Shown here piece after piece: positions 4,973 to 56,905 of a stretch of DNA of 64,000 nt. The DNA lies in assembly GCF_035046485.1 (NCBI RefSeq), contig NC_085136.1, positions 327,200,227 to 327,264,226 on the forward strand, given 5' to 3'. This DNA is from Aedes albopictus. Its lineage: Eukaryota > Arthropoda > Insecta > Diptera > Culicidae. Every line of letters begins with the position of its first letter. Position 1 is the stretch's first letter. The notes beneath the pieces are model-generated. The model was given only the letters and a program-made list of their open reading frames with translations. It was not told the origin of the DNA and ran no database searches. A program made the translations under genes and the position numbers.

Positions 4973-4995
4973 NNNNNNNNNNNNNNNNNNNNNNN
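4973..4995. other. Gap of 23 N
   Basis: Exactly 23 undetermined bases. The other two gaps in the window (35,241 and 56,883) have the same length. Confidence 0.98.
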
Positions 4996-20479: not shown

Positions 20480-20710
20480 CAGTACACTTAGAGGGCGAGA
20501 AAGGCAAGAAGACTCTACACCGTCCTTACGATCCTTACGATGGGTATGACATGTTTTTGTCCGCATGAGATTCAGATGGCAGCGTGGAAGATGGGCGGAC
20601 CAGGTGCAGAACAATCTATGACAAATGTGGGACGCTGCCAAGGAGGAAGGTCTGCAGCAGTTACGAAGCGAGTGCTATTGCGAAAAAAATTTCGTTTTTT
20701 TTAAGTTTTT
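20480..20710 (+). pseudogene. Possible LINE C-terminal scrap
   Basis: One frame near 20,578-20,670 reads as a basic/aromatic stretch with a stop (RGRWADQVQNN, then QMWDAAKEEGLQQL), similar in style to the tail of RTE/Jockey LINE proteins. The match is short and could be chance. Confidence 0.25.
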
Positions 20711-20725
20711 TATGTAATTCCACAC

Positions 20726-21769: not shown

Positions 21770-21829
21770 ATGTAATTCCACACTTAAAAAAATGTCGTTA
21801 AAACACCGCGTAAAAACGTCAAGTCACGG

Positions 21830-22952: not shown

Positions 22953-23320
22953 GGGACAGAAGGTCGAAGGACAAATGGTCGAAGGACAAAAGGTCGAAGG
23001 ACAAAAGGTCGAATGGACAAAAGGTCGAATGGACAAAAGGTCGAATGGACAAAAGGTCGAATGGACAAAAGGTCGAATGGACAAAAGGTCGAATGGACAA
23101 AAGGTCGAATGGACAAAAGGTCGAATGGACAAAAGGTCGAATGGACAAAAGGTCGAATGGACAAAAGGTCGAATGGACAAAAGGTCGAATGGACAAAGGT
23201 CGAATGGACATAAGGTCGAAGGGACAAAAGGTCAATGGGACAAAAGGTCGAATGGGACAAAAGGTCGGATGGGACAAAAGATCGGATGGGACAAAAGGTC
23301 GAATGGGACAAAAGGGCGAA
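22953..23320 (+). repeat. 16-bp satellite array, left copy
   Basis: Tandem units of GGACAAAAGGTCGAAT. The first few units are 15 bp (without the final T), about twelve central units are 16 bp, and the last units are 17 bp (GGGACAAAAGGTCGAAT) and more diverged. Stop-free frames on both strands come from the repeat. Confidence 0.95.
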
Positions 23321-23394
23321 TTTTAGTAGACCAATTTGTTGCCGCTCATTGAAAGAAACATTGTAGTGCTGTTATAGAAATCATATGCATTTCA

Positions 23395-25361: not shown

Positions 25362-25648
25362 TAGACCTTTTGTCCATACGACCTTTTGTCCATTCGACCT
25401 TTTGTCCATTCGACCTTTTGTCCATTCGACCTTTTGTCCATTCGACCTTTTGTCCATTCGACCTTTTGTCCATTCGACCTTTTGTCCATTCGACCTTTTG
25501 TCCATTCGACCTTTTGTCCATTCGACCTTTTGTCCATTCGACCTTTTGTCCCTTCGACCTTTTGTCCATTCGACCTTTTGTCCATTCGACCTTTTGTCCT
25601 TCGACCTTTTGTCCTTCGACCTTATGTCTTTCGACCTTTTGTCATAGA
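25362..25648 (-). repeat. 16-bp satellite array, right copy, inverted
   Basis: About 17 units of GACCTTTTGTCCATTC, the reverse complement of the array at 22,953-23,320. The 16-bp units face inwards, and 15-bp units (GACCTTTTGTCCTTC) lie at the outer right edge, mirroring the left array. It ends directly before the second BEL/Pao piece. Confidence 0.95.
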
Positions 25649-29280: not shown

Positions 29281-29930
29281 AAGTTTAAATTTTCCCATCA
29301 ACTCACTCCGTTTACATTTTATTTTATCACCTCCTCTCTCATCTTTCATCTCTCATTTTTCATCTGTCATCTCCTATCATCACCATCTCTCATCTCCTAT
29401 CTCTCATCTCTCATCTACCATCGCCATCTCCCATCCTTCATGTCTTATCACTCATATCTCCTCTCTTATCTCGCATCTCTCTTTTATCTTTCATCCTTTC
29501 ATCTCTTATCACTCATATGAATTTCTCATCGCTTATCTGTAATATCTTACTTCTCACCTCTTATCTAATATTTCAACTCTTATATCTAATTTTTTTTATC
29601 ACTCATCTCTCATTATCAGCATATTCTCTCGTCTTTCATCACCATCTCTCCTCTGGTAATGCTTATGAGATCTTCATCATTAATATTGCTTATCATCAGT
29701 AACTCTCATCTCTCATCTCTCATCATCATCATCATCATCATCATCATCGTCATCTCTTAACGCTTACCTCGCCTTTCTTATCACTAATCATCATTATCGT
29801 CATCACCATACCTCATCATCTCTAATCTCTCACCTTTTATTTCTTTTTTCTTATCTTTTATATCTCATTTATCATCTCTCACCTCCCACTTCTAATCTCT
29901 CATCTCTCATCATCATCTACCCTCTTAGGG
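29281..29930 (+). repeat. Degenerate TCTCATC microsatellite
   Basis: Imperfect TCTCATC and TCATCA units over about 650 bases, including a clean (ATC) run near 29,725-29,750. It is the same sequence type as the 7-bp arrays of the palindrome, but older and much more degenerate. Confidence 0.85.
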
Positions 29931-35240: not shown

Positions 35241-35263
35241 NNNNNNNNNNNNNNNNNNNNNNN
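35241..35263. other. Gap of 23 N
   Basis: Exactly 23 undetermined bases between the SINE and the 23-bp array. Confidence 0.98.
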
Positions 35264-35375
35264 ACGTCCCAACAGCTCTTTAGACATCCTCGTTAAAGCT
35301 TTTCTATCCAAAAAACCATCTAGGAGTTTTCGTTTCATTTTCTTTTTAAAAAGTCTCCGAAATGCACTTGCACTT

Positions 35376-36663
35376 CCGGGGAGAATCTCCATGAGATTCT
35401 AAGAGGAATCTCCTCGAAATTACAGGGAGAATCTCCACGAGATTCCGGAGGGAATCTCCACTAGGTTCCGGAGGGAATCTCCACGAGATTCCGGAGGGAA
35501 TCTCCACGAGATTCCGGAGGGAATCTCCACGAGATTCCGGGGGGAATCTCCACAATCTTCCGGAGGGAATCTCCACAGGATTCCGTAGGGAATCTCCACA
35601 AGATTCCGGAGGGAATCTCCACAAGATTCCGGATGGAATCTCCACAAGATTCCGGAGGGAATCTCCACAAGATTCCGGAGGGAATCTCCACAAGATTCCG
35701 GAGGGAATCTCCACAAGATTCCGGAGGGAATCTCCACAAGATTCCGGAGGGAATCTCCACAAGATTCCGGAGGGAATCTCCACAAGATTCCGGAGGGAAT
35801 CTCCACAAGATTCCGGAGGGAATCTCCACAAGATTCCGGAGGGAATCTCCACAAGATTCCGGAGGGAATCTCCACAAAATTCCGGAGGGAATCTCCACAA
35901 GATTCCGGAGGGAATCTCCACGAGATTCCGGAGGGAATCTCCACGAGATTCCGGAGGGAATCTCCACGAGATTCCGGAGGGAATCTCCACGAGATTCCGG
36001 AGGGAATCTCCACGAGATTCCGGAGGGAATCTCCACGCGATTCCGGAGGGAATCTCCACGAGATTCCGGAGGGAATCTCCACGAGATTCCGGAGGGAATC
36101 TCCACGAGATTCCGGAGGGAATCTCCACGAGATTCCGGAGGGAATCTCCACGAGATTCCGGAGGGAATCTCCACGAGATTCCGGAGGGAATCTCCACGCG
36201 ATTCCGGAGGGAATCTCCACGCGATTCCGGAGGGAATCTCCACGAGATTCCGGAGGGAATCTCCACGAGATTCCGGAGGGAATCTCCACGAGATTCCGGA
36301 GGGAATCTCCACGAGATTCCGGAGGGAATCTCCACGAGATTCCGGAGGGAATCTCCACGAGATTCCGGAGGGAATCTCCACGAGATTCCGGAGGGAATCT
36401 CCACGAGATTCCGGAGGGAATCTCCACGAGATTCCGGAGGGAATCTCCACGAGATTCCGGAGGGAATCTCCACGAGATTCCGGAGGGAATCTCCACGAGA
36501 TTCCGGAGGGAATCTCCACGAGATTCCGGAGGGAATCTCCACGAGATTCCGGAGGGAATCTCCACGATATTCCGGAGGGAATCTCCACAAGATTCCGGAG
36601 GGAAACTTTACACGGTTTGCGGAGGAAATCTCCACGAAATTTCGGCGGGAATCTCCACAAGAT
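35376..36663. repeat. 23-bp tandem array, about 56 units, each unit a hairpin
   Basis: The unit is GAGATTCC-GGAG-GGAATCTC followed by CAC: an exact 8-bp inverted repeat with a 4-base loop and a 3-base spacer. Units from about 35,576 to 35,915 mostly carry CACAAG (first stem base changed), and units from about 35,917 to 36,560 carry CACGAG. A few CACGCG units occur (36,037 and 36,199-36,222). Units decay at both edges. Because 23 is not a multiple of three and the unit has no stop, very long open frames appear in several frames on both strands. They are not genes. Confidence 0.97.
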
Positions 36664-36734
36664 AAAAACCTCCCAATAATTCTGATCACCATATATGGAT
36701 TCAGAACGTCTTTTCCATACCAACTATATGAGTA

Positions 36735-36860
36735 CACTAAAACCCCAATTTACGCTCACTTCTTTTGCGCCAAACTCAATTTGCGCCCCCCGATTTACGC
36801 ACTAATTCCCAAATAGCGCTCCCCCAATTTACGCTCCTTAGGCGTAAATTGGGGTTTTAG
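36735..36860. repeat. Subterminal hairpin of the giant element (outer end)
   Basis: The terminal CACTAAAACCCCAATTTACG is repeated inverted only 105 bases inside (GCGTAAATTGGGGTTTTAG, 36,842-36,860). The outer end can therefore fold on itself. Between them lies one copy of the subterminal unit with CCAAATAGCGCTCCCCC. The mirror copy is at 56,067-56,192. Confidence 0.85.
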
Positions 36861-36884
36861 GTATTCGGGAACAAGTAACATGTG

Positions 36885-37500
36885 ATACATATGATACATT
36901 GAGGGTTAGGGTAAAGGGTAATGTTAGATGGTAGGGTAGAGGGTTAGGGTAGAGGGTAGGGTAGAGGCTATAATAGAGGGTTAGGGTAGAGGGTAGGGTA
37001 GATGGTTAGGGTAGAGGGTAATGTAAGATGGTAGGGTAGAAGGTAGGGTAGAGGGTAGGGTAAGAGGTAGAGTAGAGGGTAGGGTAGAGGGTTAGGGTAG
37101 AAGGTAGGATAGAGGGTTGGCTAGAGGGTTCGGGTAGAGAGTAGGGTAGAAGGTAGGGTTGAATGTAAGGTAAAGGGTTAGGGTAGAGGGTATAGAGTAG
37201 GGTAGAGACTATGCTAGAGGGTTAGGGTAGAGGGTAGGGTAGATGGTAAGAGTAGAGGGTAATGTTAGATGGTATCATAGAAGGTAGGGTAAAAGGTAGG
37301 AAAGAGGATCGGGCATAGGGTTGAAGGTAGGATAGAGGGTTGGGTAGAGGGTTAAGGTAGAGGGTGGGGTAGAGGGTTCGGGTAGAGGTTAGGGTAGAAG
37401 GTAGGGTAAGTAGAAGGTTGGGTTGAGGGTAGGGTAGATGGTTAGAGTAGAGGGTAGGGTAGAAGGTAGGGTAGAGGGGAGTGTAGAGGATAGGATGGAG
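36885..37500 (+). repeat. Telomere-like minisatellite, left arm
   Basis: Variable units built from AGGGTTAGGGTAGAGGGTA. TTAGGG occurs often but never as a clean run. The mirror copy on the minus strand is at about 55,428-56,040. Confidence 0.9.
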
Positions 37501-37504
37501 GGTT

Positions 37505-39490
37505 AGGGAAGGATGACATGAGATGATATGAAAGATGAGATGATAGATGAGATGAGAGATGAGATGAGAGATGAGATGAGAGATGAGATGTGAGATGAGA
37601 TGAGAGATGAGAGAGGAGAGAGGAGAGATGAGAGATGAGAGATGAGAGATGAGAGATGAGAGATGAGAGATGAGAGATGAGAGATGAGAGATGAGAGATG
37701 AGAGATGAGAGATGAGAGATGAGAGATGAGAGATGAGAGATGAGAGATGAGAGATGAGAGATGAGAGATGAGAGATGAGAGATGAGAGATGAGAGATGAG
37801 AGATGAGAGATGAGAGATGAGAGATGAGAGATGAGAGATGAGAGATGAGAGATGAGAGATGAGAGATGAGAGATGAGAGATGAGAGATGAGAGATGAGAG
37901 ATGAGAGATGAGAGATGAGAGATGAGAGATGAGAGATGAGAGATGAGAGATGAGAGATGAGAGATGAGAGATGAGAGATGAGAGATGAGAGATGAGAGAT
38001 GAGAGATGAGAGATGAGAGATGAGAGATGAGAGATGAGAGATGAGAGATGAGAGATGAGAGATGAGAGATGAGAGATGAGAGATGAGAGATGAGAGATGA
38101 GAGATGAGAGATGAGAGATGAGAGATGAGAGATGAGAGATGAGAGATGAGAGATGAGAGATGAGAGATGAGAGATGAGAGATGAGAGATGAGAGATGAGA
38201 GATGAGAGATGAGAGATGAGAGATGAGAGATGAGAGATGAGAGATGAGAGATGAGAGATGAGAGATGAGAGATGAGAGATGAGAGATGAGAGATGAGAGA
38301 TGAGAGATGAGAGATGAGAGATGAGAGATGAGAGATGAGAGATGAGAGATGAGAGATGAGAGATGAGAGATGAGAGATGAGAGATGAGAGATGAGAGATG
38401 AGAGATGAGAGATGAGAGATGAGAGATGAGAGATGAGAGATGAGAGATGAGAGATGAGAGATGAGAGATGAGAGATGAGAGATGAGAGATGAGAGATGAG
38501 AGATGAGAGATGAGAGATGAGAGATGAGAGATGAGAGATGAGAGATGAGAGATGAGAGATGAGAGATGGGAGATGAGAGATGAGAGATGAGAGATGAGAG
38601 ATGAGAGATGAGAGATGAGAGATGAGAGATGAGAGATAAGAGATGAGAGATGAGAGATGAGAGATGAGAGATGAGAGATGAGAGATGAGAGATGAGAGAT
38701 GAGAGATGAGAGATGAGAGTTGAGATGAGAGATGAGATGAGAGATGAGATGAGAGATGAGATGAGAGATGAGATGAAAGATGAGATGAGAGATGAGATGA
38801 GAGATGAGATGAGAGATGAGATGAGAGATGAGAAGAGAGATGAGATGAGAGATGAGATGAGAGATGAGATGAGAGATGAGATGAGAGATGAGATGAGAGA
38901 TGAGATGAGAGATGAGATGAGAGATGAGATGAGAGATGAGATGAGAGATGAGATGAGAGATGAGATGAGAGATGAGATGAGAGATGAGATGAGATATGAG
39001 AGATGAGAGATGAGAGATGAGAGATGAGAGATGAGAGATGAGAGATGAGAGATGAGAGATGAGAGATGAGAGATGAGAGATGAGAGATGAGAGATGAGAG
39101 ATGAGAGATGAGAGATGAGAGATGAGAGATGAGAGATGAGAGATGAGAGATAAGAGATGAGATGAGAGATGAGATGAGAGATGAGATGAAAGATGAGATG
39201 AGAGATGAGATGAGAGATGAGATGAAAGATGAGATGAGAGGAGAGATGAGATGAGAGATGAGATGAGATGAGAGATGAGATGAGAGATGAGATGAGAGAT
39301 GAGATGAGAGATGAGATGAAAGATGAGAGATGAGAGATGAGATGAGAGATGAGATGAGATGTGAGATGAGAGAAGAGATGAGAGATGAGATGAGAGATGA
39401 GATGAGATGAGAGATGAGATGAGAGATGAGAGATGAGAGATGAGATGAGAGATGAGATGAGAGATGAGGTGAGAGATTAGACGAGAGATG
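37505..39490 (+). repeat. 7-bp (GATGAGA) array with 12-bp sub-array, left arm
   Basis: Nearly pure GATGAGA units at about 37,620-38,720 and 39,000-39,150. A block of 12-bp units (GATGAGATGAGA, i.e. 5+7) lies at about 38,725-38,995, and mixed 5/7-bp units at both outer sides. Rare single-base variants (GATGGGA near 38,568; GATAAGA near 38,635) serve as landmarks and recur in the mirror arm. The 733-codon open frame on the minus strand is an artefact of the repeat. Confidence 0.97.
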
Positions 39491-39495
39491 AGAAA

Positions 39496-39680
39496 CAGTG
39501 GTTCTCAAGCTGGGGTTACGGGCCATGCTGTATTCGCAAGAACCTAAAGAGCGAGGAGAAAGAGTGAATATTTTTTGGATTATGCATATCAAGGGGTATG
39601 CATTACAATGCTCTGGGGTTTTCAAACTGGAGTTACGGGCCATGCGAATTCCTCAAGAATCCTAAAGGCTAGAGCTTGAG
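39496..39680 (+). repeat. hAT-like terminus, diverged relative of the 132-bp unit
   Basis: CAGTGGTTCTCAAGCTGGGG begins here, followed by TTACGGGCCATGC and CAAGAACC. This is the 132-bp satellite unit in reverse orientation and in its most hAT-terminus-like form. A second, shorter copy follows near 39,618. The mirror copy lies at about 53,171-53,355. Confidence 0.65.
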
Positions 39681-40009
39681 CTTGATTGACCGCCCGCAGT
39701 TGCTACTCCAGTATCGCCAGATCAGCTACACTCACACAAGGAACCAATGAGATAGCTGCTTGGGACTAACAGGCATCTTCAGTGTGTAAGCGTTGGTGGT
39801 CTTGTATTTTTAGGCGACAATGGCGCCTGCTGCGTCAGGCTGCAGGTTAATGAGGAAGGGGAGGGAAGTGATGATTGCAATCGCTTGCCCACATCAGGCC
39901 GTTGAATCCTCTGCGCCTTCACAAGGTCATGCGGATGTTGGTGTGTTGGTGGGAAATGTTTATTTTTGGCACATGGATCATGCATTGGTGCAAGGGTGCC
40001 AGGCTAATT
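39681..40009. other. Short non-repetitive spacer in the giant element
   Basis: A 123-codon open frame starts at 39,820 and continues into the 132-bp units. It has no recognisable domain and is exactly duplicated at 52,660-53,031 in the right arm. I do not consider it a gene. Confidence 0.4.
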
Positions 40010-40281
40010 TTCAACATATCAATATTAGAGATACTGATCCTTACGATGACCAATCCGTAAAACATTTGCTCTTCTGCCTAGCACTTTCGGATCTTGAGAT
40101 TTTCACGTGGCCCGTGATCATAGATTGGAAACCACTAATTTTCAACATATCAATATTAGAGATACTGATCCTTAAGATGATCAATCCGTAAAACATTGGT
40201 TTTTCTTCCTAGCACTTTCGGATCTTGAGATACTCACGCGGCCCGTGATCATAGATTGGAAACCACTGATTTTTCAACATA
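40010..40281 (+). repeat. Two 132-bp satellite units, cut by a TA element
   Basis: The units share CAACATATCAATATTAGAGA and GCACTTTCGGATCTTGAGA. The second is interrupted at TA (40,280-40,281) by the 3.3-kb element and resumes at 43,615. The mirror is at 52,570-52,841. Confidence 0.85.
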
Positions 40282-41875
40282 CAGGTATGTTCCGTTTTTG
40301 TCACTATCCGTTTTTATCACTATCCGTTTTTGTCACTATCCGATTTCGTCAACATTTCATTCCGTTTTTGTCAACACTATTTTTTTGTCAAATTTGTTCC
40401 CTTGAACACGAGTTATGTAAAGCTTAACATTAATCTTCAGGCAATGCATCCATGGATGAATTTGAAACTACTACCAATTATGACATAGAAGACGTATACG
40501 CCACAGTAGCTTTCAACACATTTCAAGTTCAGCTATAAATAATGTTCATTCATGCTTTCTTTCAAGCATAATTGTATTTCTTATTTGAAAATGAGAAAAC
40601 TAAACCAATAGTCCAATAGAAAAATCAAACCCAGCTAAGTTAATTAATAAAAATCTGACAGGAGGTGGCAGGAGGTAACACGTGAATATCAATATCATCA
40701 TCAACATTTTATAAAATCATCAAAGGACGGATTCGACTATCCGGCAATAGGAAAAACCACCATGGAGAATCGAACATTTTTTTATTTCATTAGCCTATTG
40801 TGTTAGGGCACAATTGATGCCCTTTCCAGGGATTGCTCCAGGATGTCCATCTGAGTATTCCCCCAAGAACTTCCTTCTGAAGATCCTTCTTCTCCTTTCT
40901 TCTTCTTTTTTTATTATTATTATTCTTCTTTTTGGCTCTACGTACCAACTGGAACTTGGCCTGTCACTTCAAGTGTTCTTCGAGAACTTAAACAGTTTAG
41001 GGCTTTCTTTGCCTGTCCTTGCCTGAATTTTTACACTACAATCTTTTTTACAATACTTTTTTAAGTGAAATAAATTTCACGTGATTTTGAAATTATGCGA
41101 TGTGCTGAATTCTTCTCTCCTGGTCGCTAGTTCTTTCCGACGGGGCTCAAACTTCTACCAGAGATCTCTCTTGTCATCCTTGATACCCTGTCCAAATTTT
41201 CCAGACCGAAACAGCTATATTCACTAGCCTAACAGGAGTTTCCTATAGAATTTTATCCGAGATTTCATCTTTCGTTTGCTCCAAAAATGCAATCTTGATT
41301 TTCTTCAGTAATTCCTACTAGCGATTATTGTATTCCTCCAGATCTTAATGGATTTCTTCTGAGAAATCGTCAGGAAATAATTCAGAAGTTCCTTTAGATG
41401 AATTAGGAGTTAAATCTATCAGAAATAAGTTTCTCAAAGAAGGAGGAGTCTAGGGTCTTTTTTTTGTTCTTATTAACATGTATTTTAACATTGAGCTAAT
41501 TCTACACTTCATCTAGGATCTTAGAAAACGATCTGAGGATTTCTCCTGCAACTCCTCAAGGGTTCCAAGAAAAAACAAAAGATTCCCAAAAATCCTACAG
41601 AAATCCCATTAATTTTGAAAGTACCCCTCGAGGAACAATTAAATGGTTTCATGAAAGAACTTTTACAGGATTCCTAGAAGGAATTTTTCAAGGATTCCCA
41701 CAAGGAACTTCTGGACGATCCTCACGAATAACTCCCCAGAGATTTCTATACAGAACATCATCCCTGAAGAATCTTCTGGAGGACTGTAGGAAAGAATTCC
41801 TGGAAGATTACTAGACTAAACTTCTGAGAGATTCCCAGGAAGCGCAATAAGAAATCGGGGATAATTATTATTGTA

Positions 41876-41935
41876 ATATTATCTTTATTTACGAGATGTT
41901 CAGCCCAAGGCTGGTTGATCTAGTAATAATGAGGA
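41876..41935 (-). mobile_element. SINE 3' tail, Feilai-like, left arm
   Basis: On the minus strand GATCAACCAGCCTTGGGCTG is followed by AACATCTCGTAAATAAAGAT, close to the remembered 3' end of Feilai-type SINEs. No head was recognised. The mirror is at 50,916-50,975. Confidence 0.5.
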
Positions 41936-42542
41936 TATAACAAAGATAAAAAATAGAACCGTATTGGAAAATCTCTGAAAGTTCCAGTAGGTGTAGATGT
42001 GTCTACTCGCATAAATACCAAAACAAAGTAAAAAAAAGATCATAAGAAAATCTTTAACGAATCCATGAAAGAACTTCTGATGTAATTACAGAAAAACTAT
42101 TGAAGGAATCCCAGAAAGAACCCCTGGAGAAATATCAGAAAAAAAACCTGGGGGGATTTCAGAAAGCAGTCTTGGAAGAATTCCCGTGGGAAATTTTGAA
42201 GAAACGAAGAAACTCCTATATTTCAAAAGTAAAATCTTGTGAATCTCCAAAGCAACTCTTGGATGAATTGATGAACAAGGACCTAGGTTAAATCCCAGAA
42301 TGATTTTCTTAGCCCACCTTGTGCATTAGGGCCATTCCAGACCCAAACCGTACACAACGTCAGCGAGCTGTTCCCAACATAATGCATAAGTATGGTTAAT
42401 AAATTCCAATTCCTGGTGGAGTATTTGAAGGGATTTACAAAGAAACTCCTGGAAAATTTTTAAAAGAGACATCTAGGTTGATCCGAGAAGAAATTTCTGA
42501 ACAAATCATAAGGGGCAGAACCTCTTTTCTCTAAAAATTCTT

Positions 42543-42697
42543 GGTGGCCGTCCATATATGACGTTGCATTTTAAGAGAGAGGGGGGAGTCTCTGATAATG
42601 CTACGAGCCATGTTCTAGGTATGGGAAAATAGGCTACGAGGGAGGAGGTGGTGTCAAAAATCGTCTAAAAATGCTACGTTATTTATGGACGAGCCCC
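42543..42697. mobile_element. 155-bp MITE with GTCCATAAATAACGT ends, left arm
   Basis: GGTGGCCGTCCATATATGAC at the left pairs imperfectly with GTTATTTATGGACGAGCCCC at the right. The end sequence is related to those at 9596-9744 and 16,439-16,616. The mirror is at 50,153-50,307. Confidence 0.75.
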
Positions 42698-42835
42698 TAT
42701 CGCATTTCAAAAGATAAAAAGCGGCATGGTATAAGGTAACTTACAAGAATTCTGGAGAAACTTCTTGGCGAATCCAATATTCTGGAGAGAATACAAGTGA
42801 TTGCTTAGAAAAATTCCTGAAGGTTTTTTAAAAGT

Positions 42836-43110
42836 ATGCTAGTGAAGCGAATAAAACACGGCCGGCTGCGGTGGGCTGGACACGTAGCTCGTATGCCGGA
42901 GGAACGACAAGCTAAAACCATATTCAGCAGAGAAGCAGGTAGGGGCCGTCAGCTTCGTGGTAGGCCTCGCACACGGTGGCTTTTTGCAGGACCTAAGGGC
43001 TCTAAACGTTGAGGGTGACTGGAAGCGATTGGCCCAGGACCGAGACAAGTGGAGGCGAATGCTTCATTCGGCGTAGGCTCACCGCTACGAGTTGTAGCCC
43101 ATCAAGTATC
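42836..43110 (+). pseudogene. LINE C-terminal tail, left arm
   Basis: The frame from 42,836 encodes MLVKRIKHGRLRWAGHVARM, then PEERQAKTIFSREAGRGRQL, the conserved tail after RT in RTE/Jockey-like LINEs (the RWAGHVARM motif). A frameshift near 42,978 moves the remainder (LRALNVEGDWKRLAQDRDKW) to another frame. The 3' end has ATCAAGTATCAAGT, perhaps the terminal tail repeat. It is a 5'-truncated dead insertion inside the 3.3-kb element. The mirror on the minus strand is at 49,740-50,014. Confidence 0.8.
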
Positions 43111-43614
43111 AAGTGGTATCCTAGTTTAAACTTTCATAGGAATCTGTTAAGATGATAATCGTGGAGAAATGCATTCCGGAAGGAAGTAAACATATCCTCT
43201 TTTGTTAGGATCCCAAAATTACGTTCCTGGAGATTAATCATTCCTGGAAGTCTGTCATATTTTAAAACGTCGATCCGGATACTGGAACTGTAATATGTGC
43301 CATTCTTGCGTTCACTGAAAATACATTTCCAAAACTGGGGTCACAAATGTGGTGAAAACCTTTTGTCGACGTCGTAGTCAGAAAACTATAATTTGAACTG
43401 TGCAACCAAGATGTGCTAAAATACATCAAAAACAATTGAATTTCATAATAAAGTGCATATTTTTACTTCTGGAATGTGTTCTACAGTAAATCTTCCAGTT
43501 TATATACAAATGTTGCAAAATATTCTGTCAAAGAAAATTATTCCGTTTTTATCACTATTCCGTTTTTATCAACTGAAAATCACGGACCGTGTTGATAAAA
43601 ACGGAACATACCTG

Positions 43615-45590
43615 TATCTGTATCAGAGATACTGATCCTTGAGATGATCAATCCGAAAAACATTTGGTCTTCTTCCTAGCACTTTCGGTTCTTGAGATAT
43701 TCACGTGGCCCGTGAGCATAGATTGGAAACCACTGATTTTTCAACATATCTATATCAGAGTACTGATCCTTGAGATGATCAATCCGAAAAACATTTGCTC
43801 TTCTTCCTAGCACTTTCGGTTCTTGAGATATTCACGTGGCCCGTGAGCTTGGATTGGAAACCACTGATTTTTCAGCATATCTGTATCAGAGATACTGATC
43901 CTTGAGATGATCAATCCGAAAAACATTTGCTCTTCTTCCTAGCACTTTCGGTTCTTGAGATATTCACGTGGCCCGTGAGCATAGATTGGAAACCACTGAT
44001 TTTTCAACATATCTGTATCAGAGATACAGAGCCTTGAGATGATCAATCCGAAAAAAACATTTGCTCTTCTTCCTAGCACTTTCGGTTCTTGAGATATTCA
44101 CGTGGCCCGTGAGCTTGGATTGGAAACCACTGATTTTTCAGCATATCTGTATCAGAGATACTGATCCTTGAGATGATCAATCCGAAAAACATTTGCTCTT
44201 CTTCCTAGCACTTTCGGTTCTTGAGATATTCACGTGGCCCGTGAGCATAGATTGGAAACCACTGATTTTTCAACATATCTGTATCAGAGATACAGAGCCT
44301 TGAGATGATCAATCCGAAAAAACATTTGCTCTTCTTCCTAGCACTTTCGGTTCTTGAGATATTCACGTGGCCCGTGAGCTTGGATTGGAAACCACTGATT
44401 TTTCAGCAAAAATGTATCAGAGATACTGATCCTTGAGATGATCAATCCGAAAAACATTTGCTCTTCTTCCTAGCACTTTCGGTTCTTGAGATATTCACGT
44501 GGCCCGTGAGCATAGATTGGAAACCACTGATTTTTCAACATATCTGTATCAGAGATACTGATCCTTGAGATGATCAATCCGAAAAACATTTGGTCTTCTT
44601 CCTAGCACTTTCGGTTCTTGAGATATTCACGTGGCCCGTGAGCATAGATTGGAAACCACTGATTTTTCAACATATCTATATCAGAGATACTGATCCTTGA
44701 GATGATCAATCCGAATAACATTTGCTCTTCTTCCTAGCACTTTCGGTTCTTGAGATATTCACGTGGCCCGTGAGCTTGGATTGGAAACCACTGATTTTTC
44801 AGCATATCTGTATCAGAGATACTGATCCTTGAGATGATCAATCCGAAAAACATTTGCTCTTCTTCCTAGCACTTTCGGTTCTTGAGATATTCACGTGGCC
44901 CGTGAGCATAGATTGGAAACCACTGATTTTTCAACATATCTATATCGGAGATACTGATCCTTGAGATGACCAATCCGAAAAACATTTGGTCTTCTTCCTA
45001 GCACTTTCGGTTTTTGAGATATTCACGTGGCCCGTGAGCATAGATTGGAAACCACTGTTTTTTCAACATATCTATATCAGAGATACTGATCCTTGAGATG
45101 ATCAATCCGAAAAACATTTGGTCTTCTTCCTAGCACTTTCGGTTCTTGAGATATTCACGTGGCCCGTGAGCATAGATTGGAAACCACTGATTTTTCTACA
45201 TATCTGTATCAGAGATACTGATCCTTGAGATGATTATTCCGAAAAACATTTGCTCTTCTTCCTAGCACTTTCGGTTCTTGAGATATTCACGTGGCCCGTG
45301 AGCATAGATTGGAAACCACTGATTTTTCAACATATCTATATCAAAGATACTGATCCTTGAGATGATCAATCCGAAAAACATTTGCTCTTTTTCCTATCAC
45401 TTTCGGTTCTTGAGATATTCACGTGGCCCGTGACCATAGGTTGGAAACCACTGATTGATGCAATACAACTACATTGTGGTAAGTACATACTCCCTGAAGT
45501 GCAGAATTCGGAAAATCTTTTCACATTATCTTCACATCTCTGATTCTTGAGAAATTCGCTTGGCCCATGACCGTAGTTTGGGAACCACTG
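43615..45590 (+). repeat. 132-bp satellite array, about 14 units, left arm
   Basis: Each unit contains GATACTGATCCTTGAGATGA, AGCACTTTCGGTTCTTGAGA, TTCACGTGGCCCGTGAGC and GATTGGAAACCACTGATTTT. Two unit types (GAGCATAG...CAACATATC and GAGCTTGG...CAGCATATC) partly alternate, giving a 264-bp higher-order period. The last, most diverged unit ends GGCCCATGACCGTAGTTTGG then GAACCACTG at 45,590, resembling a hAT terminus. The mirror is at 47,260-49,235. Confidence 0.95.
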
Positions 45591-45710
45591 AACTTAGCAA
45601 AAATGCTAAATTATTAATTGTAATTGAATAACTTATAACCTTTCAATAGGTTAGGAACTTTGTGATTTCGATCTTCACAAACTAATTATAAAACTGAAAA
45701 AAAAACACTG

Positions 45711-45876
45711 CCCCGATTTACGCACTAATTCCCAAATAGCGCTCCCCCGATTTACGCACTAATTCCCAAATAGCGCTCCCCCGATTTACGCACTAATTCC
45801 CAAATAGCGCTCCCCCCAAGTTACGCTCCCCCAATTTACGCTCCCCCCGTTTTGAGCGTAAATTGGGGTTTTAGTG
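45711..45876. repeat. Subterminal 34-bp repeats of the giant element (inner end)
   Basis: Three tandem 34-bp units start at 45,711, 45,745 and 45,779 (CCCCGATTTACGCACTAATT, then CCCAAATAGCGCTC). Two short CAATTTACGCTCCCC-type units and the terminal repeat follow. The mirror is at 45,879-46,044. Repeated subterminal motifs of this kind are often transposase-binding sites; that role is inferred. Confidence 0.9.
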
Positions 45877-46126
45877 TACACTAAAACCCCAATTTACGCT
45901 CAAAACGGGGGGAGCGTAAATTGGGGGAGCGTAACTTGGGGGGAGCGCTATTTGGGAATTAGTGCGTAAATCGGGGGAGCGCTATTTGGGAATTAGTGCG
46001 TAAATCGGGGGAGCGCTATTTGGGAATTAGTGCGTAAATCGGGGCAGTGTTTTTTTTTCAGTTTTATAATTAGTTTGTGAAGATCGAAATCACAAAGTTC
46101 CTAACCTATTGAAAGGTTATAAGTTA

Positions 46127-47220
46127 GGCTAAAATATAAACGACTCATAAGAAAGTGATCATTCTTCATAAATAATTCCAAAAGTCCCAGTGAAGAAACA
46201 GGGGTGTAAGCAGTCATAAATAACAAAAGTTCCATAAACAAATAGAAAAATGCATAAATAAATCAAAAGTTTCCATAAATAAGTGATTTTTGAGCAATTA
46301 AAAACGTCAAAAATGCAATGAATAATTCAACTGTTGCAATAAAAAAAGTCAATTTTCCCACCAAAAAACTTCGAATTTTCCATAAATAAATTCGATTTTT
46401 CCATAATAAATTAAAAAATTCACAATAAAAAAATATCAAAAAAGCAATAAATAATTCAAAAAGTGCAATAACAAAAAAATAAATTATCAATAAATGTCAA
46501 AAAACGAGCAATAAACGTAAATGCATTTTGAGGCAAAAATTATATAGACCATGCGGCGAAGCCGCATAGAGGATTGAGGAACTGAGGCGGCAGAAGGCCG
46601 CCGAAGTTTCCGATATCCGATGCACAGCAACTGCATCGATTCGGTTCTAGGCAAACCACAGATTCAAGAATTTGCCCGGTATAATGCAAACATAGATGTT
46701 ATCCCTTTTTTAGGTCCGACGAGCGATAGCGAGTTCGGACAGCAAGCAATTGTTCGGTAAATTGCAATCATAGTTACGCAAGCTTTTCCGTTGTTTCAGT
46801 CATATAAGTGCGATTCAGCATTTCACTGTCTCATACTTTCCTGCATTTGTTTTTCATGGGTAATTTCGTCATTTTTTATTGCATTTTTTGAATTTTTTAT
46901 TGCTTTTTCGATATTTTTTTATTGTGAATTTTCTAATTTATTATGGAAAAATCGGATTTATTTATGGAAAATTTGAAGTTATTTGGTGGGAAAATTGGCT
47001 TTTTTTATTGCAACAGTTGATTTATTCATTGCATTTTTGACGTTTTTTATTGCTCAAAAATCAATTATTTATGGAAACTTTTGATTTATTTATGCATTTT
47101 TCTATTTGTTTATGGAACTTTTGTTATTTATTACTGCTTACACCCCTGTTTCTTCACTGGGACTTTTGGAATTATTTATGGGAAATTTTGTATTTATTAT
47201 GGAACGTTTAATTGTCTGCC
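46127..47220. mobile_element. 1,094-bp foldback element present only in the right arm
   Basis: The ends GGCTAAAATATAAACG and CGTTTAATTGTCTGCC are imperfect inverted repeats. Stronger pairing continues inwards for about 350 bases (ATAAATAATTCCAAAAGTCC, AGAAACAGGGGTGTAAGCAG and their complements). The left arm preserves the empty site (AAGTT-A-TTCAA), so only an A is duplicated. The centre (46,550-46,760) is GC-richer and holds compact hairpins: GCGGC-GAA-GCCGC, GGCGGC-AGAAG-GCCGCC and GTCCGA...TCGGAC. No transposase frame is present; frames of 60-75 codons encode only Phe/Ile-rich low complexity. Confidence 0.88.
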
Positions 47221-47259
47221 ATTCAATTACAATTAATAATTTAGCATTTTTGCTAAGTT

Positions 47260-49235
47260 CAGTGGTTCCCAAACTACGGTCATGGGCCAAGCGAATTTCT
47301 CAAGAATCAGAGATGTGAAGATAATGTGAAAAGATTTTCCGAATTCTGCACTTCAGGGAGTATGTACTTACCACAATGTAGTTGTATTGCATCAATCAGT
47401 GGTTTCCAACCTATGGTCACGGGCCACGTGAATATCTCAAGAACCGAAAGTGATAGGAAAAAGAGCAAATGTTTTTCGGATTGATCATCTCAAGGATCAG
47501 TATCTTTGATATAGATATGTTGAAAAATCAGTGGTTTCCAATCTATGCTCACGGGCCACGTGAATATCTCAAGAACCGAAAGTGCTAGGAAGAAGAGCAA
47601 ATGTTTTTCGGAATAATCATCTCAAGGATCAGTATCTCTGATACAGATATGTAGAAAAATCAGTGGTTTCCAATCTATGCTCACGGGCCACGTGAATATC
47701 TCAAGAACCGAAAGTGCTAGGAAGAAGACCAAATGTTTTTCGGATTGATCATCTCAAGGATCAGTATCTCTGATATAGATATGTTGAAAAAACAGTGGTT
47801 TCCAATCTATGCTCACGGGCCACGTGAATATCTCAAAAACCGAAAGTGCTAGGAAGAAGACCAAATGTTTTTCGGATTGGTCATCTCAAGGATCAGTATC
47901 TCCGATATAGATATGTTGAAAAATCAGTGGTTTCCAATCTATGCTCACGGGCCACGTGAATATCTCAAGAACCGAAAGTGCTAGGAAGAAGAGCAAATGT
48001 TTTTCGGATTGATCATCTCAAGGATCAGTATCTCTGATACAGATATGCTGAAAAATCAGTGGTTTCCAATCCAAGCTCACGGGCCACGTGAATATCTCAA
48101 GAACCGAAAGTGCTAGGAAGAAGAGCAAATGTTATTCGGATTGATCATCTCAAGGATCAGTATCTCTGATATAGATATGTTGAAAAATCAGTGGTTTCCA
48201 ATCTATGCTCACGGGCCACGTGAATATCTCAAGAACCGAAAGTGCTAGGAAGAAGACCAAATGTTTTTCGGATTGATCATCTCAAGGATCAGTATCTCTG
48301 ATACAGATATGTTGAAAAATCAGTGGTTTCCAATCTATGCTCACGGGCCACGTGAATATCTCAAGAACCGAAAGTGCTAGGAAGAAGAGCAAATGTTTTT
48401 CGGATTGATCATCTCAAGGATCAGTATCTCTGATACATTTTTGCTGAAAAATCAGTGGTTTCCAATCCAAGCTCACGGGCCACGTGAATATCTCAAGAAC
48501 CGAAAGTGCTAGGAAGAAGAGCAAATGTTTTTTCGGATTGATCATCTCAAGGCTCTGTATCTCTGATACAGATATGTTGAAAAATCAGTGGTTTCCAATC
48601 TATGCTCACGGGCCACGTGAATATCTCAAGAACCGAAAGTGCTAGGAAGAAGAGCAAATGTTTTTCGGATTGATCATCTCAAGGATCAGTATCTCTGATA
48701 CAGATATGCTGAAAAATCAGTGGTTTCCAATCCAAGCTCACGGGCCACGTGAATATCTCAAGAACCGAAAGTGCTAGGAAGAAGAGCAAATGTTTTTTTC
48801 GGATTGATCATCTCAAGGCTCTGTATCTCTGATACAGATATGTTGAAAAATCAGTGGTTTCCAATCTATGCTCACGGGCCACGTGAATATCTCAAGAACC
48901 GAAAGTGCTAGGAAGAAGAGCAAATGTTTTTCGGATTGATCATCTCAAGGATCAGTATCTCTGATACAGATATGCTGAAAAATCAGTGGTTTCCAATCCA
49001 AGCTCACGGGCCACGTGAATATCTCAAGAACCGAAAGTGCTAGGAAGAAGAGCAAATGTTTTTCGGATTGATCATCTCAAGGATCAGTACTCTGATATAG
49101 ATATGTTGAAAAATCAGTGGTTTCCAATCTATGCTCACGGGCCACGTGAATATCTCAAGAACCGAAAGTGCTAGGAAGAAGACCAAATGTTTTTCGGATT
49201 GATCATCTCAAGGATCAGTATCTCTGATACAGATA
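47260..49235 (-). repeat. 132-bp satellite array, right arm
   Basis: Mirror of 43,615-45,590 with the same unit order and the same rare variants (for example the extra A bases and the CTGTATCTC units). It starts CAGTGGTTCCCAAACTACGG, the hAT-like end. Confidence 0.95.
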
Positions 49236-52200
49236 CAGGTATGTTCCGTTTTTATCAACACGGTCCGTGATTTTCAGTTGATAAAAACGGAATAGTGATA
49301 AAAACGGAATAATTTTCTTTGACAGAATATTTTGCAACATTTGTATATAAACTGGAAGATTTACTGTAGAACACATTCCAGAAGTAAAAATATGCACTTT
49401 ATTATGAAATTCAATTGTTTTTGATGTATTTTAGCACATCTTGGTTGCACAGTTCAAATTATAGTTTTCTGACTACGACGTCGACAAAAGGTTTTCACCA
49501 CATTTGTGACCCCAGTTTTGGAAATGTATTTTCAGTGAACGCAAGAATGGCACATATTACAGTTCCAGTATCCGGATCGACGTTTTAAAATATGACAGAC
49601 TTCCAGGAATGATTAATCTCCAGGAACGTAATTTTGGGATCCTAACAAAAGAGGATATGTTTACTTCCTTCCGGAATGCATTTCTCCACGATTATCATCT
49701 TAACAGATTCCTATGAAAGTTTAAACTAGGATACCACTTGATACTTGATGGGCTACAACTCGTAGCGGTGAGCCTACGCCGAATGAAGCATTCGCCTCCA
49801 CTTGTCTCGGTCCTGGGCCAATCGCTTCCAGTCACCCTCAACGTTTAGAGCCCTTAGGTCCTGCAAAAAGCCACCGTGTGCGAGGCCTACCACGAAGCTG
49901 ACGGCCCCTACCTGCTTCTCTGCTGAATATGGTTTTAGCTTGTCGTTCCTCCGGCATACGAGCTACGTGTCCAGCCCACCGCAGCCGGCCGTGTTTTATT
50001 CGCTTCACTAGCATACTTTTAAAAAACCTTCAGGAATTTTTCTAAGCAATCACTTGTATTCTCTCCAGAATATTGGATTCGCCAAGAAGTTTCTCCAGAA
50101 TTCTTGTAAGTTACCTTATACCATGCCGCTTTTTATCTTTTGAAATGCGATAGGGGCTCGTCCATAAATAACGTAGCATTTTTAGACGATTTTTGACACC
50201 ACCTCCTCCCTCGTAGCCTATTTTCCCATACCTAGAACATGGCTCGTAGCATTATCAGAGACTCCCCCCTCTCTCTTAAAATGCAACGTCATATATGGAC
50301 GGCCACCAAGAATTTTTAGAGAAAAGAGGTTCTGCCCCTTATGATTTGTTCAGAAATTTCTTCTCGGATCAACCTAGATGTCTCTTTTAAAAATTTTCCA
50401 GGAGTTTCTTTGTAAATCCCTTCAAATACTCCACCAGGAATTGGAATTTATTAACCATACTTATGCATTATGTTGGGAACAGCTCGCTGACGTTGTGTAC
50501 GGTTTGGGTCTGGAATGGCCCTAATGCACAAGGTGGGCTAAGAAAATCATTCTGGGATTTAACCTAGGTCCTTGTTCATCAATTCATCCAAGAGTTGCTT
50601 TGGAGATTCACAAGATTTTACTTTTGAAATATAGGAGTTTCTTCGTTTCTTCAAAATTTCCCACGGGAATTCTTCCAAGACTGCTTTCTGAAATCCCCCC
50701 AGGTTTTTTTTCTGATATTTCTCCAGGGGTTCTTTCTGGGATTCCTTCAATAGTTTTTCTGTAATTACATCAGAAGTTCTTTCATGGATTCGTTAAAGAT
50801 TTTCTTATGATCTTTTTTTTACTTTGTTTTGGTATTTATGCGCAGTAGACACATCTACACCTACTGGAACTTTCAGAGATTTTCCAATACGGTTCTATTT
50901 TTTATCTTTGTTATATCCTCATTATTACTAGATCAACCAGCCTTGGGCTGAACATCTCGTAAATAAAGATAATATTACAATAATAATTATCCCCGATTTC
51001 TTATTGCGCTTCCTGGGAATCTCTCAGAAGTTTAGTCTAGTAATCTTCCAGGAATTCTTTCCTACAGTCCTCCAGAAGATTCTTCAGGGATGATGTTCTG
51101 TATAGAAATCTCTGGGGAGTTATTCGTGAGGATCGTCCAGAAGTTCCTTGTGGGAATCCTTGAAAAATTCCTTCTAGGAATCCTGTAAAAGTTCTTTCAT
51201 GAAACCATTTAATTGTTCCTCGAGGGGTACTTTCAAAATTAATGGGATTTCTGTAGGATTTTTGGGAATCTTTTGTTTTTTCTTGGAACCCTTGAGGAGT
51301 TGCAGGAGAAATCCTCAGATCGTTTTCTAAGATCCTAGATGAAGTGTAGAATTAGCTCAATGTTAAAATACATGTTAATAAGAACAAAAAAAAGACCCTA
51401 GACTCCTCCTTCTTTGAGAAACTTATTTCTGATAGATTTAACTCCTAATTCATCTAAAGGAACTTCTGAATTATTTCCTGACGATTTCTCAGAAGAAATC
51501 CATTAAGATCTGGAGGAATACAATAATCGCTAGTAGGAATTACTGAAGAAAATCAAGATTGCATTTTTGGAGCAAACGAAAGATGAAATCTCGGATAAAA
51601 TTCTATAGGAAACTCCTGTTAGGCTAGTGAATATAGCTGTTTCGGTCTGGAAAATTTGGACAGGGTATCAAGGATGACAAGAGAGATCTCTGGTAGAAGT
51701 TTGAGCCCCGTCGGAAAGAACTAGCGACCAGGAGAGAAGAATTCAGCACATCGCATAATTTCAAAATCACGTGAAATTTATTTCACTTAAAAAAGTATTG
51801 TAAAAAAGATTGTAGTGTAAAAATTCAGGCAAGGACAGGCAAAGAAAGCCCTAAACTGTTTAAGTTCTCGAAGAACACTTGAAGTGACAGGCCAAGTTCC
51901 AGTTGGTACGTAGAGCCAAAAAGAAGAATAATAATAATAAAAAAAGAAGAAGAAAGGAGAAGAAGGATCTTCAGAAGGAAGTTCTTGGGGGAATACTCAG
52001 ATGGACATCCTGGAGCAATCCCTGGAAAGGGCATCAATTGTGCCCTAACACAATAGGCTAATGAAATAAAAAAATGTTCGATTCTCCATGGTGGTTTTTC
52101 CTATTGCCGGATAGTCGAATCCGTCCTTTGATGATTTTATAAAATGTTGATGATGATATTGATATTCACGTGTTACCTCCTGCCACCTCCTGTCAGATTT

Positions 52201-52569
52201 TTATTAATTAACTTAGCTGGGTTTGATTTTTCTATTGGACTATTGGTTTAGTTTTCTCATTTTCAAATAAGAAATACAATTATGCTTGAAAGAAAGCATG
52301 AATGAACATTATTTATAGCTGAACTTGAAATGTGTTGAAAGCTACTGTGGCGTATACGTCTTCTATGTCATAATTGGTAGTAGTTTCAAATTCATCCATG
52401 GATGCATTGCCTGAAGATTAATGTTAAGCTTTACATAACTCGTGTTCAAGGGAACAAATTTGACAAAAAAATAGTGTTGACAAAAACGGAATGAAATGTT
52501 GACGAAATCGGATAGTGACAAAAACGGATAGTGATAAAAACGGATAGTGACAAAAACGGAACATACCTG
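49236..52569. mobile_element. 3.3-kb TA-flanked element, right arm
   Basis: Mirror of 40,282-43,614, with one extra base (GCGC instead of CGC near 50,842). It contains the mirrored LINE tail (49,740-50,014, minus strand), MITE (50,153-50,307) and SINE tail (50,916-50,975, plus strand). The TA duplications are at 49,234-49,235 and 52,570-52,571. Confidence 0.85.
49740..50014 (-). pseudogene. LINE C-terminal tail, right arm
   Basis: Reverse-complement duplicate of 42,836-43,110 with the same frameshift, so the decay precedes the duplication of the giant element. Confidence 0.8.
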
Positions 52570-53360
52570 TATGTTGAAAAATCAGTGGTTTCCAATCTAT
52601 GATCACGGGCCGCGTGAGTATCTCAAGATCCGAAAGTGCTAGGAAGAAAAACCAATGTTTTACGGATTGATCATCTTAAGGATCAGTATCTCTAATATTG
52701 ATATGTTGAAAATTAGTGGTTTCCAATCTATGATCACGGGCCACGTGAAAATCTCAAGATCCGAAAGTGCTAGGCAGAAGAGCAAATGTTTTACGGATTG
52801 GTCATCGTAAGGATCAGTATCTCTAATATTGATATGTTGAAAATTAGCCTGGCACCCTTGCACCAATGCATGATCCATGTGCCAAAAATAAACATTTCCC
52901 ACCAACACACCAACATCCGCATGACCTTGTGAAGGCGCAGAGGATTCAACGGCCTGATGTGGGCAAGCGATTGCAATCATCACTTCCCTCCCCTTCCTCA
53001 TTAACCTGCAGCCTGACGCAGCAGGCGCCATTGTCGCCTAAAAATACAAGACCACCAACGCTTACACACTGAAGATGCCTGTTAGTCCCAAGCAGCTATC
53101 TCATTGGTTCCTTGTGTGAGTGTAGCTGATCTGGCGATACTGGAGTAGCAACTGCGGGCGGTCAATCAAGCTCAAGCTCTAGCCTTTAGGATTCTTGAGG
53201 AATTCGCATGGCCCGTAACTCCAGTTTGAAAACCCCAGAGCATTGTAATGCATACCCCTTGATATGCATAATCCAAAAAATATTCACTCTTTCTCCTCGC
53301 TCTTTAGGTTCTTGCGAATACAGCATGGCCCGTAACCCCAGCTTGAGAACCACTGTTTCT
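52570..53360 (-). repeat. 132-bp pair, spacer and hAT-like terminus, right arm
   Basis: Mirror of 39,491-40,281: two satellite units (52,570-52,841), the spacer, and the diverged hAT-like unit ending at about 53,355. Confidence 0.85.
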
Positions 53361-55427
53361 CATCTCTCGTCTAATCTCTCACCTCATCTCTCATCTCATC
53401 TCTCATCTCATCTCTCATCTCTCATCTCTCATCTCATCTCTCATCTCATCTCATCTCTCATCTCATCTCTCATCTCTTCTCTCATCTCACATCTCATCTC
53501 ATCTCTCATCTCATCTCTCATCTCTCATCTTTCATCTCATCTCTCATCTCATCTCTCATCTCATCTCTCATCTCATCTCTCATCTCATCTCATCTCTCAT
53601 CTCATCTCTCCTCTCATCTCATCTTTCATCTCATCTCTCATCTCATCTCTCATCTCATCTTTCATCTCATCTCTCATCTCATCTCTCATCTCATCTCTTA
53701 TCTCTCATCTCTCATCTCTCATCTCTCATCTCTCATCTCTCATCTCTCATCTCTCATCTCTCATCTCTCATCTCTCATCTCTCATCTCTCATCTCTCATC
53801 TCTCATCTCTCATCTCTCATCTCTCATCTCTCATCTCTCATCTCTCATCTCTCATCTCTCATCTCTCATCTCTCATATCTCATCTCATCTCTCATCTCAT
53901 CTCTCATCTCATCTCTCATCTCATCTCTCATCTCATCTCTCATCTCATCTCTCATCTCATCTCTCATCTCATCTCTCATCTCATCTCTCATCTCATCTCT
54001 CATCTCATCTCTCATCTCATCTCTCATCTCATCTCTCATCTCATCTCTCTTCTCATCTCTCATCTCATCTCTCATCTCATCTCTCATCTCATCTCTCATC
54101 TCATCTTTCATCTCATCTCTCATCTCATCTCTCATCTCATCTCTCATCTCATCTCTCATCTCAACTCTCATCTCTCATCTCTCATCTCTCATCTCTCATC
54201 TCTCATCTCTCATCTCTCATCTCTCATCTCTCATCTCTTATCTCTCATCTCTCATCTCTCATCTCTCATCTCTCATCTCTCATCTCTCATCTCTCATCTC
54301 TCATCTCCCATCTCTCATCTCTCATCTCTCATCTCTCATCTCTCATCTCTCATCTCTCATCTCTCATCTCTCATCTCTCATCTCTCATCTCTCATCTCTC
54401 ATCTCTCATCTCTCATCTCTCATCTCTCATCTCTCATCTCTCATCTCTCATCTCTCATCTCTCATCTCTCATCTCTCATCTCTCATCTCTCATCTCTCAT
54501 CTCTCATCTCTCATCTCTCATCTCTCATCTCTCATCTCTCATCTCTCATCTCTCATCTCTCATCTCTCATCTCTCATCTCTCATCTCTCATCTCTCATCT
54601 CTCATCTCTCATCTCTCATCTCTCATCTCTCATCTCTCATCTCTCATCTCTCATCTCTCATCTCTCATCTCTCATCTCTCATCTCTCATCTCTCATCTCT
54701 CATCTCTCATCTCTCATCTCTCATCTCTCATCTCTCATCTCTCATCTCTCATCTCTCATCTCTCATCTCTCATCTCTCATCTCTCATCTCTCATCTCTCA
54801 TCTCTCATCTCTCATCTCTCATCTCTCATCTCTCATCTCTCATCTCTCATCTCTCATCTCTCATCTCTCATCTCTCATCTCTCATCTCTCATCTCTCATC
54901 TCTCATCTCTCATCTCTCATCTCTCATCTCTCATCTCTCATCTCTCATCTCTCATCTCTCATCTCTCATCTCTCATCTCTCATCTCTCATCTCTCATCTC
55001 TCATCTCTCATCTCTCATCTCTCATCTCTCATCTCTCATCTCTCATCTCTCATCTCTCATCTCTCATCTCTCATCTCTCATCTCTCATCTCTCATCTCTC
55101 ATCTCTCATCTCTCATCTCTCATCTCTCATCTCTCATCTCTCATCTCTCATCTCTCATCTCTCATCTCTCATCTCTCATCTCTCATCTCTCATCTCTCAT
55201 CTCTCATCTCTCATCTCTCATCTCTCATCTCTCATCTCTCATCTCTCATCTCTCATCTCTCATCTCTCATCTCTCATCTCTCATCTCTCATCTCTCATCT
55301 CTCCTCTCTCCTCTCTCATCTCTCATCTCATCTCACATCTCATCTCTCATCTCATCTCTCATCTCATCTCTCATCTCATCTATCATCTCATCTTTCATAT
55401 CATCTCATGTCATCCTTCCCTAACCCT
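53361..55427 (-). repeat. 7-bp (TCTCATC) array with 12-bp sub-array, right arm
   Basis: Mirror of 37,505-39,490. It is longer by 75 bases: the 12-bp block (53,880-54,165) has one unit more and the long 7-bp block about nine units more. The 758-codon plus-strand frame is repeat-driven. Confidence 0.97.
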
Positions 55428-56040
55428 CCATCCTATCCTCTACACTCCCCTCTACCCTACCTTCTACCCTACCCTCTACTCTAACCATCTACCCTACCCT
55501 CAACCCAACCTTCTACTTACCCTACCTTCTACCCTAACCTCTACCCGAACCCTCTACCCCACCCTCTACCTTAACCCTCTACCCAACCCTCTATCCTACC
55601 TTCAACCCTATGCCCGATCCTCTTTCCTACCTTTTACCCTACCTTCTATGATACCATCTAACATTACCCTCTACTCTTACCATCTACCCTACCCTCTACC
55701 CTAACCCTCTAGCATAGTCTCTACCCTACTCTATACCCTCTACCCTAACCCTTTACCTTACATTCAACCCTACCTTCTACCCTACTCTCTACCCGAACCC
55801 TCTAGCCAACCCTCTATCCTACCTTCTACCCTAACCCTCTACCCTACCCTCTACTCTACCTCTTACCCTACCCTCTACCCTACCTTCTACCCTACCATCT
55901 TACATTACCCTCTACCCTAACCATCTACCCTACCCTCTACCCTAACCCTCTATTATAGCCTCTACCCTACCCTCTACCCTAACCCTCTACCCTACCATCT
56001 AACATTACCCTTTACCCTAACCCTCAATGTATCATATGTA
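55428..56040 (-). repeat. Telomere-like minisatellite, right arm
   Basis: CCCTAACCCTCTACCCTACC-type units, mirroring 36,885-37,500 unit for unit as far as I can follow. Confidence 0.9.
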
Positions 56041-56194
56041 TCACATGTTACTTGTTCCCGAATACCTAAAACCCCAATTTACGCCTAAGGAGCGTAAATT
56101 GGGGGAGCGCTATTTGGGAATTAGTGCGTAAATCGGGGGGCGCAAATTGAGTTTGGCGCAAAAGAAGTGAGCGTAAATTGGGGTTTTAGTGTAT

Positions 56195-56882: not shown

Positions 56883-56905
56883 NNNNNNNNNNNNNNNNNN
56901 NNNNN
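56883..56905. other. Gap of 23 N
   Basis: Exactly 23 undetermined bases, the third gap of this size. Confidence 0.98.

Follow-up and report, generated by a model that had tools for sequence, protein, structure and literature searches.

The DNA examined here, called the window, is a whole stretch of 64,000 nucleotides of the Aedes albopictus genome (assembly GCF_035046485.1, contig NC_085136.1, positions 327,200,227 to 327,264,226 of the forward strand) and it holds a 19.5-kb palindrome which is best explained, with a probability that we put at about 0.8, as two oppositely oriented copies of one non-autonomous TA-targeting terminal inverted repeat (TIR) transposon sharing a single TA and resulting from recent local transposition. 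In the assembly the centre of symmetry is the TA at 45877-45878 and, once an insertion of 1,094 bp is set aside, the aligned arms are identical in 9,138 of 9,142 columns, which bears out the near-identical arms centred on a TA proposed in a preliminary description made from the letters alone. This striking structure would thus be explained as a product of transposition.

Each arm has the ends of a complete transposon. The sequence CACTAAAACCCCAATTTACGCTCA begins at 36735 and ends, reversed, at 45876, then begins again at 45879 and ends at 56191, and a TA is present at all three boundaries, namely the outer left target-site duplication (36733-36734), the central TA common to both copies and the outer right target-site duplication (56192-56193). 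The left copy (36735-45876, plus strand) measures 9,142 bp and carries a TIR of 24 bp with a 100% match between its two ends, and the right copy (45879-56191, minus strand) lies inverted and, with the 1,094-bp insertion, measures 10,313 bp. Two complete copies with one TA between them and a TA outside both are what a double insertion leaves, and the palindrome is therefore made of two self-contained transposon copies, not of one element. The arm limits given previously stood for the whole left arm and for the start of the right arm; the right end had to be moved to 56191, since 56192 is the T of the flanking TA. In BLAST, 36733-45629 pairs with 56193-47221 at 99.1% over 8,973 columns. The inner core (45629-46126, 498 bp) is its own reverse complement, and chance is excluded because the exact half-palindrome is 249 bp long.

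The same ends are dispersed in the genome, for which 1,344,132,971 bases in 1,494 contigs were searched. The 21-base end CACTAAAACCCCAATTTACGC occurs exactly 272 times (142 + 130) and 266 of these occurrences (139 + 127) adjoin a TA, while the reversed-pattern controls gave no match genome-wide. A TA was also found at 14/14 ends in L003-L021, loci that had been fetched without using the TA. Pair geometry was read from the first 100 of the 266 sites with TA and TIR: among neighbours less than 35 kb apart, 37 pairs converge (1.7-30.9 kb, two of them at the palindrome locus), two diverge (the palindrome centre and a pair separated by 21.6 kb) and none points in the same direction. To judge from its sequence, the element is a TA-targeting TIR DNA transposon whose family members are non-autonomous and carry satellite arrays.

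These dispersed ends bear on whether the palindrome could be a single giant transposon of the foldback type moving as a 19.5-kb unit. Its outer ends are TIRs with a TA on both sides, so that such a unit could in principle move; its centre, on the other hand, consists of two complete TIRs with a TA between them, and single two-ended copies are dispersed whereas one instance of this back-to-back junction was found in the 1.34 Gb searched, at one mismatch or fewer and at three or fewer alike, with no sign in that search of the whole unit at several sites. A giant foldback element is consequently very improbable, and the idea of one large palindrome as a unit, implicit in the preliminary description, gains no support, each arm being self-contained and belonging to a family with 272 exact ends.

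The interior of the copies consists largely of tandem arrays. From its outer end inwards, the left copy contains a minisatellite of the GAGGGTAGGGTA type (36901-37508), a 7-bp ATGAGAG array (37512-39493), a first part of a 132-bp satellite (40004-40281, 2.1 copies), a nested TA-flanked transposon with ends CAGGTATGTTCCGTTTTT lying within the satellite (40282-43614), the second part of the satellite (43615-45456, 13.9 copies) and a 34-bp subterminal repeat of 3.1 copies (45711-45816), all on the plus strand. On the minus strand, the right copy carries the 132-bp satellite (47394-49235, 13.9 copies), the nested transposon (49236-52569), the 7-bp array (53358-55398) and the GAGGGTAGGGTA-type minisatellite (55418-56025). 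About 2.6 kb of each arm (36901-39493 and 53358-56025) has nearly all its G on one strand, with 1,127 G and 11 C in the first interval and 11 G and 1,159 C in the second; runs such as GGGTAGGGTAGAGGGTAGGG in the G-rich part presumably fit the G-quadruplex motif. The first 125 bp or so of the arm (36735-36859) end in GCGTAAATTGGGGTTTTAG, a reversed near-TIR, so that the outer end resembles a small two-ended element, and the same near-TIR (two mismatches) is found about 107-141 bp inside most fetched copies.

Comparison with other members of the family was made with nine copies that have two exact ends, all of them single elements of 2.9-7.8 kb (5,572, 7,372, 4,769, 4,009, 7,761, 3,238, 3,288, 2,942 and 3,924 bp). 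The order of minisatellite, 7-bp array and 132-bp satellite is kept in the first five of these copies and in L036; L034, L035 and L037 have the minisatellite and the 7-bp array with no 132-bp array called. In 7/9 the 34-bp subterminal repeat was called at one end at least. In their unique segments the right and left arms are identical over the 5' part (166 bp), the spacer (510 bp) and the 3' part (420 bp), and every one of the nine other copies differs in, or is without, at least one of these segments, the closest being L037 (100% over 138 bp of the 5' part), C2_14 (99.4%, whole 5' part) and C1_205 (99.6%, spacer). The nested 3.3-kb transposon, with TA on either side, is present at full length in both arms and in 0/9 other copies, partial matches being limited to 68 bp at 76% in L036 and to a match in C1_205 that extends about 100 bp into the region at 79%. 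The genome similarity searches score the best candidates only; on that basis the nested transposon belongs to a dispersed family of its own (174 matches from the best 40 of 8,716 candidates), whose best matches outside the locus reach 89% over 2 kb and 92% over 1.65 kb, and the first kilobase of the arm finds its best other match at 91% (best 40 of 2,179 candidates). On these sequence comparisons the two arms are sister copies.

A sister relation of the arms is difficult to reconcile with two different members of the family having entered the same TA region independently. A family with 272 exact ends and TA targeting offers many candidates for such an event; however, the chance expectation of a family member landing on the flanking TAs of another is about 2e-4, and the copies share a nested transposon that is not full length in 9/9 others, which makes independent insertions extremely improbable. 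The estimate assumes about 133 elements (half of the 266 ends) and, by extrapolation from the window, about 8e7 TA sites, and serves as a guide only, as the event was chosen post hoc in a genome with many families. Given this figure and the sister relation of the neighbours, independent insertions are less likely than either a local route or a tendency of the element to target its own ends.

The differences between the arms suggest how recently they separated. All four substitutions, together with indels of 42 bp and 33 bp, are confined to the 7-bp array, and the single 1-bp indel lies in the nested transposon, one further base belonging to the insertion point; the arm alignment proposed earlier for counting differences has thus been carried out. 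The arms are of unequal length since the right one holds 1,094 bp (46127-47220, minus strand) missing from the left; the whole left arm is repeated in inverted orientation, as first described, in a near-complete match to which the right arm adds this stretch. The insertion, with inverted repeats of 328 bp that are 94% alike, belongs as a full-length copy to a repeat family and is 97.9% identical over its full length to a stretch within the family member L037; the duplication at its site is of one base at most. Outside the 7-bp array no substitution was found over 7,160 columns (95% upper bound 4.2e-4). The mutation rate of Drosophila is 2.8e-9 per site and generation and, assuming this rate and no gene conversion, the duplication would be under about 75,000 generations old. 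From the one-sided insertion and the nested transposon common to both arms, the order of events appears clear: the nested transposon would have entered the satellite, inverted duplication would have followed, and the 1,094-bp insertion in the right copy and the small changes in the 7-bp array would have come last.

Near-identity of the arms could also be expected from an inverted duplication by break-induced replication or template switching followed by gene conversion keeping the arms alike, and conversion between arms is compatible with the single genome at hand. Such a process should nevertheless have mirrored some of the flank, whereas the flanks beyond the outer TAs are unrelated to one another, and it does not predict outer breakpoints and a centre that coincide exactly with TIR ends and TA. 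Since a recent origin suffices, this route is judged highly unlikely; of the two causes put forward previously, very recent origin or ongoing gene conversion, the first is retained and the second is not needed to explain the identity.

The flanks were then considered as a record of the site before insertion. When the outer flanks are joined by one TA, they match an old repeat (43 matches from the best 40 of 2,208 candidates scored). In 8/10 aligned relatives (L040-L043, L045-L047 and L049) the best match crosses the join and, for L039 and L044, the best match starts beyond the join and further matches do cross it. Identity across the join is about 63-74%, these being paralogous repeats, and L041, L043 and L046 carry TATATTGC at the join, as an unoccupied TA predicts. 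Since this old repeat occurs in tandem at several loci, the cautious wording is that the outer flanks are in phase with it, which would fit contiguity before insertion.

Taken together, these observations are consistent with a local double insertion in which one copy would have been resident at a TA beforehand. Any TA is presumably open to a TA-targeting element, those on either side of a resident copy included, and a landing there in the opposite orientation would yield the structure seen. The second copy would thus derive from the resident one, perhaps by a sister-chromatid route, and would have inserted inverted into a TA flanking its parent with transposase supplied from elsewhere, leaving TA-copy-TA-copy-TA between formerly contiguous flanks. 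The distribution of the family on C1 (39 elements) weakly points towards a local route, with 3 neighbours less than 100 kb apart against a mean of 0.43 (P = 0.009), 4 against 2.05 below 500 kb (P = 0.14) and 8 against 3.96 below 1 Mb (P = 0.03). An improbable variant is a family that is directed to its own ends, or that joins two excised copies end to end; a dimer with abutted TIRs and one TA would then be a natural, perhaps highly active, transposition intermediate in an animal, and transport of all 19.5 kb by its outer ends would be conceivable. The head-to-head insertion-sequence dimers of bacteria follow a comparable logic.

Several points weigh against local double insertion. With the palindrome pair removed, the clustering on C1 below 100 kb falls to 2 neighbours against 0.43 (P = 0.07) and is weak, and the uniqueness of the junction means that there is no second case showing a habit of the family. 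The parent copy is not distinguishable between the arms. Most other relatives of the flanking repeat are at least two bases shorter at the join, and the exact letters before insertion are thus unproven. As for the source of transposase, Pfam gave no match in the six frames of 39494-43617, the non-array interior of the arm. In a DDE_3 profile search taking the best 150 of 645 candidates, the 65 that fall on C1 or in the part of C2 below 159 Mb were compared with the 37 listed element intervals, which rest on the first 100 of the 266 TA-flanked ends, and 0/65 lay within 500 bp of any of them. No transposase with these ends was therefore found by Pfam in the arm interior or by DDE_3 near the listed intervals.

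Coding content was dropped as a feature of the arms in view of the absent Pfam match and of the long frames, which are tandem arrays; the window has nine frames of 150 amino acids or more, and those located in the arms or within 35346-36737 are of this kind. Four members, three close to 3 kb in size and one of 3.9 kb, were considered as candidate autonomous partners and rejected, all being array-bearing. By inspection, without a Pfam search of them, no frame outside the arrays could be assigned in the nine other copies, the four candidates among them; frames were also listed for eight further loci.

The palindrome is also known from the assembly alone, and beyond the arms, at distances of 1.5 kb and 0.7 kb, there are runs of 23 N. 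One real element mirrored by the assembler, or joined by it to a copy from a second locus, would account for a junction found nowhere else in the genome, long palindromes pose difficulties for assemblers, and the whole structure sits in a single 21.6-kb N-free stretch (35264-56882) bounded by those runs. Against this, the arms differ by the full-length 1,094-bp repeat and by the 42- and 33-bp array indels, so that the second arm is no mirror of the first; a read folded back on itself was discarded as an explanation for the same reason and for the unmirrored flanks. The centre falls exactly on a TA common to two TIRs, and two joined loci would hardly provide outer flanks that differ and yet, once joined, are in phase with one old repeat. 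An assembly artefact is accordingly considered unlikely, and we infer that the assembly is correct across the two copies. Three runs of 23 N are present in the window (4973-4995, 35241-35263 and 56883-56905), the two sides of each being dissimilar; among the 12 loci L010-L021, L019 holds 500 N and the others none.

The arrangement, a double insertion with one shared target duplication, is of a known kind, and its size and satellite cargo are unusual. MITE multimers are double insertions of DNA transposons at one target, and the two inverted P elements at singed-weak of Drosophila are reportedly a back-to-back double insertion at one target. Like these, the palindrome has two opposite non-autonomous copies with one target duplication between them; unlike these, its copies are 9-10 kb long and laden with satellites, and the target duplication is TA. 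Among the titles and abstract openings surveyed, none dealt, in Aedes, with this transposon family or a junction of this sort; the survey extended neither to repeat databases nor to subscription journals and is thus no proof that the family is undescribed.

Other systems, as far as the parts of the reports consulted describe them, resemble the palindrome in single respects. Artificial P transposons also enter copies of themselves, within the copy (PMC4744444) instead of exactly on the flanking target duplication. The foldback element Tetris of Drosophila virilis is, like the arm element, non-autonomous, with tandem arrays, an inverted-repeat look and, in the part consulted, no transposase copy found (PMC4079207); here, by contrast, the long inverted repeats are two separate elements whose own TIR is 24 bp. 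Galileo at Drosophila inversion breakpoints likewise involves two opposite copies of one transposon, but these lie on either side of an inverted segment and are chimeric, with target duplications that have been exchanged (PMC2775673), whereas only a TA lies between the present copies. The gene-conversion palindromes of X and Y chromosomes also have arms more than 99% identical (PMC3723533, PMC8981503), in contrast to which the present arms are non-coding transposons with only a TA as spacer and a recent origin suffices. A TIR transposon would thus be able to create, in the chromosome of an animal, a long palindrome that is almost perfect and has a perfect core of 498 bp; the locus could serve to time and follow the stability of long palindromes in mosquitoes, and the family that carries it would also spread ready-made satellite arrays across the genome.

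Other repeats were noted elsewhere in the window. At 29331-29911 there are two CTCATCT-type arrays, about 70-77% related to the ATGAGAG array of the transposon, with no exact TIR nearby in the window. The 16-bp minisatellite GGACAAAAGGTCGAAT (22954-23321, 23 copies) is followed about 2 kb away by its inverted unit (25364-25643, 17.7 copies), and the two may be arms of another element. A 97% inverted repeat at 20696-21792 (arms 20696-21155 and 21342-21792) forms a small near-palindrome. Finally, the frame at 528-959 has its best match in the Aedes albopictus protein LOC134288470 (88% over 82%), and 1/9 of its matches carries PF00078, which we take to be reverse transcriptase.

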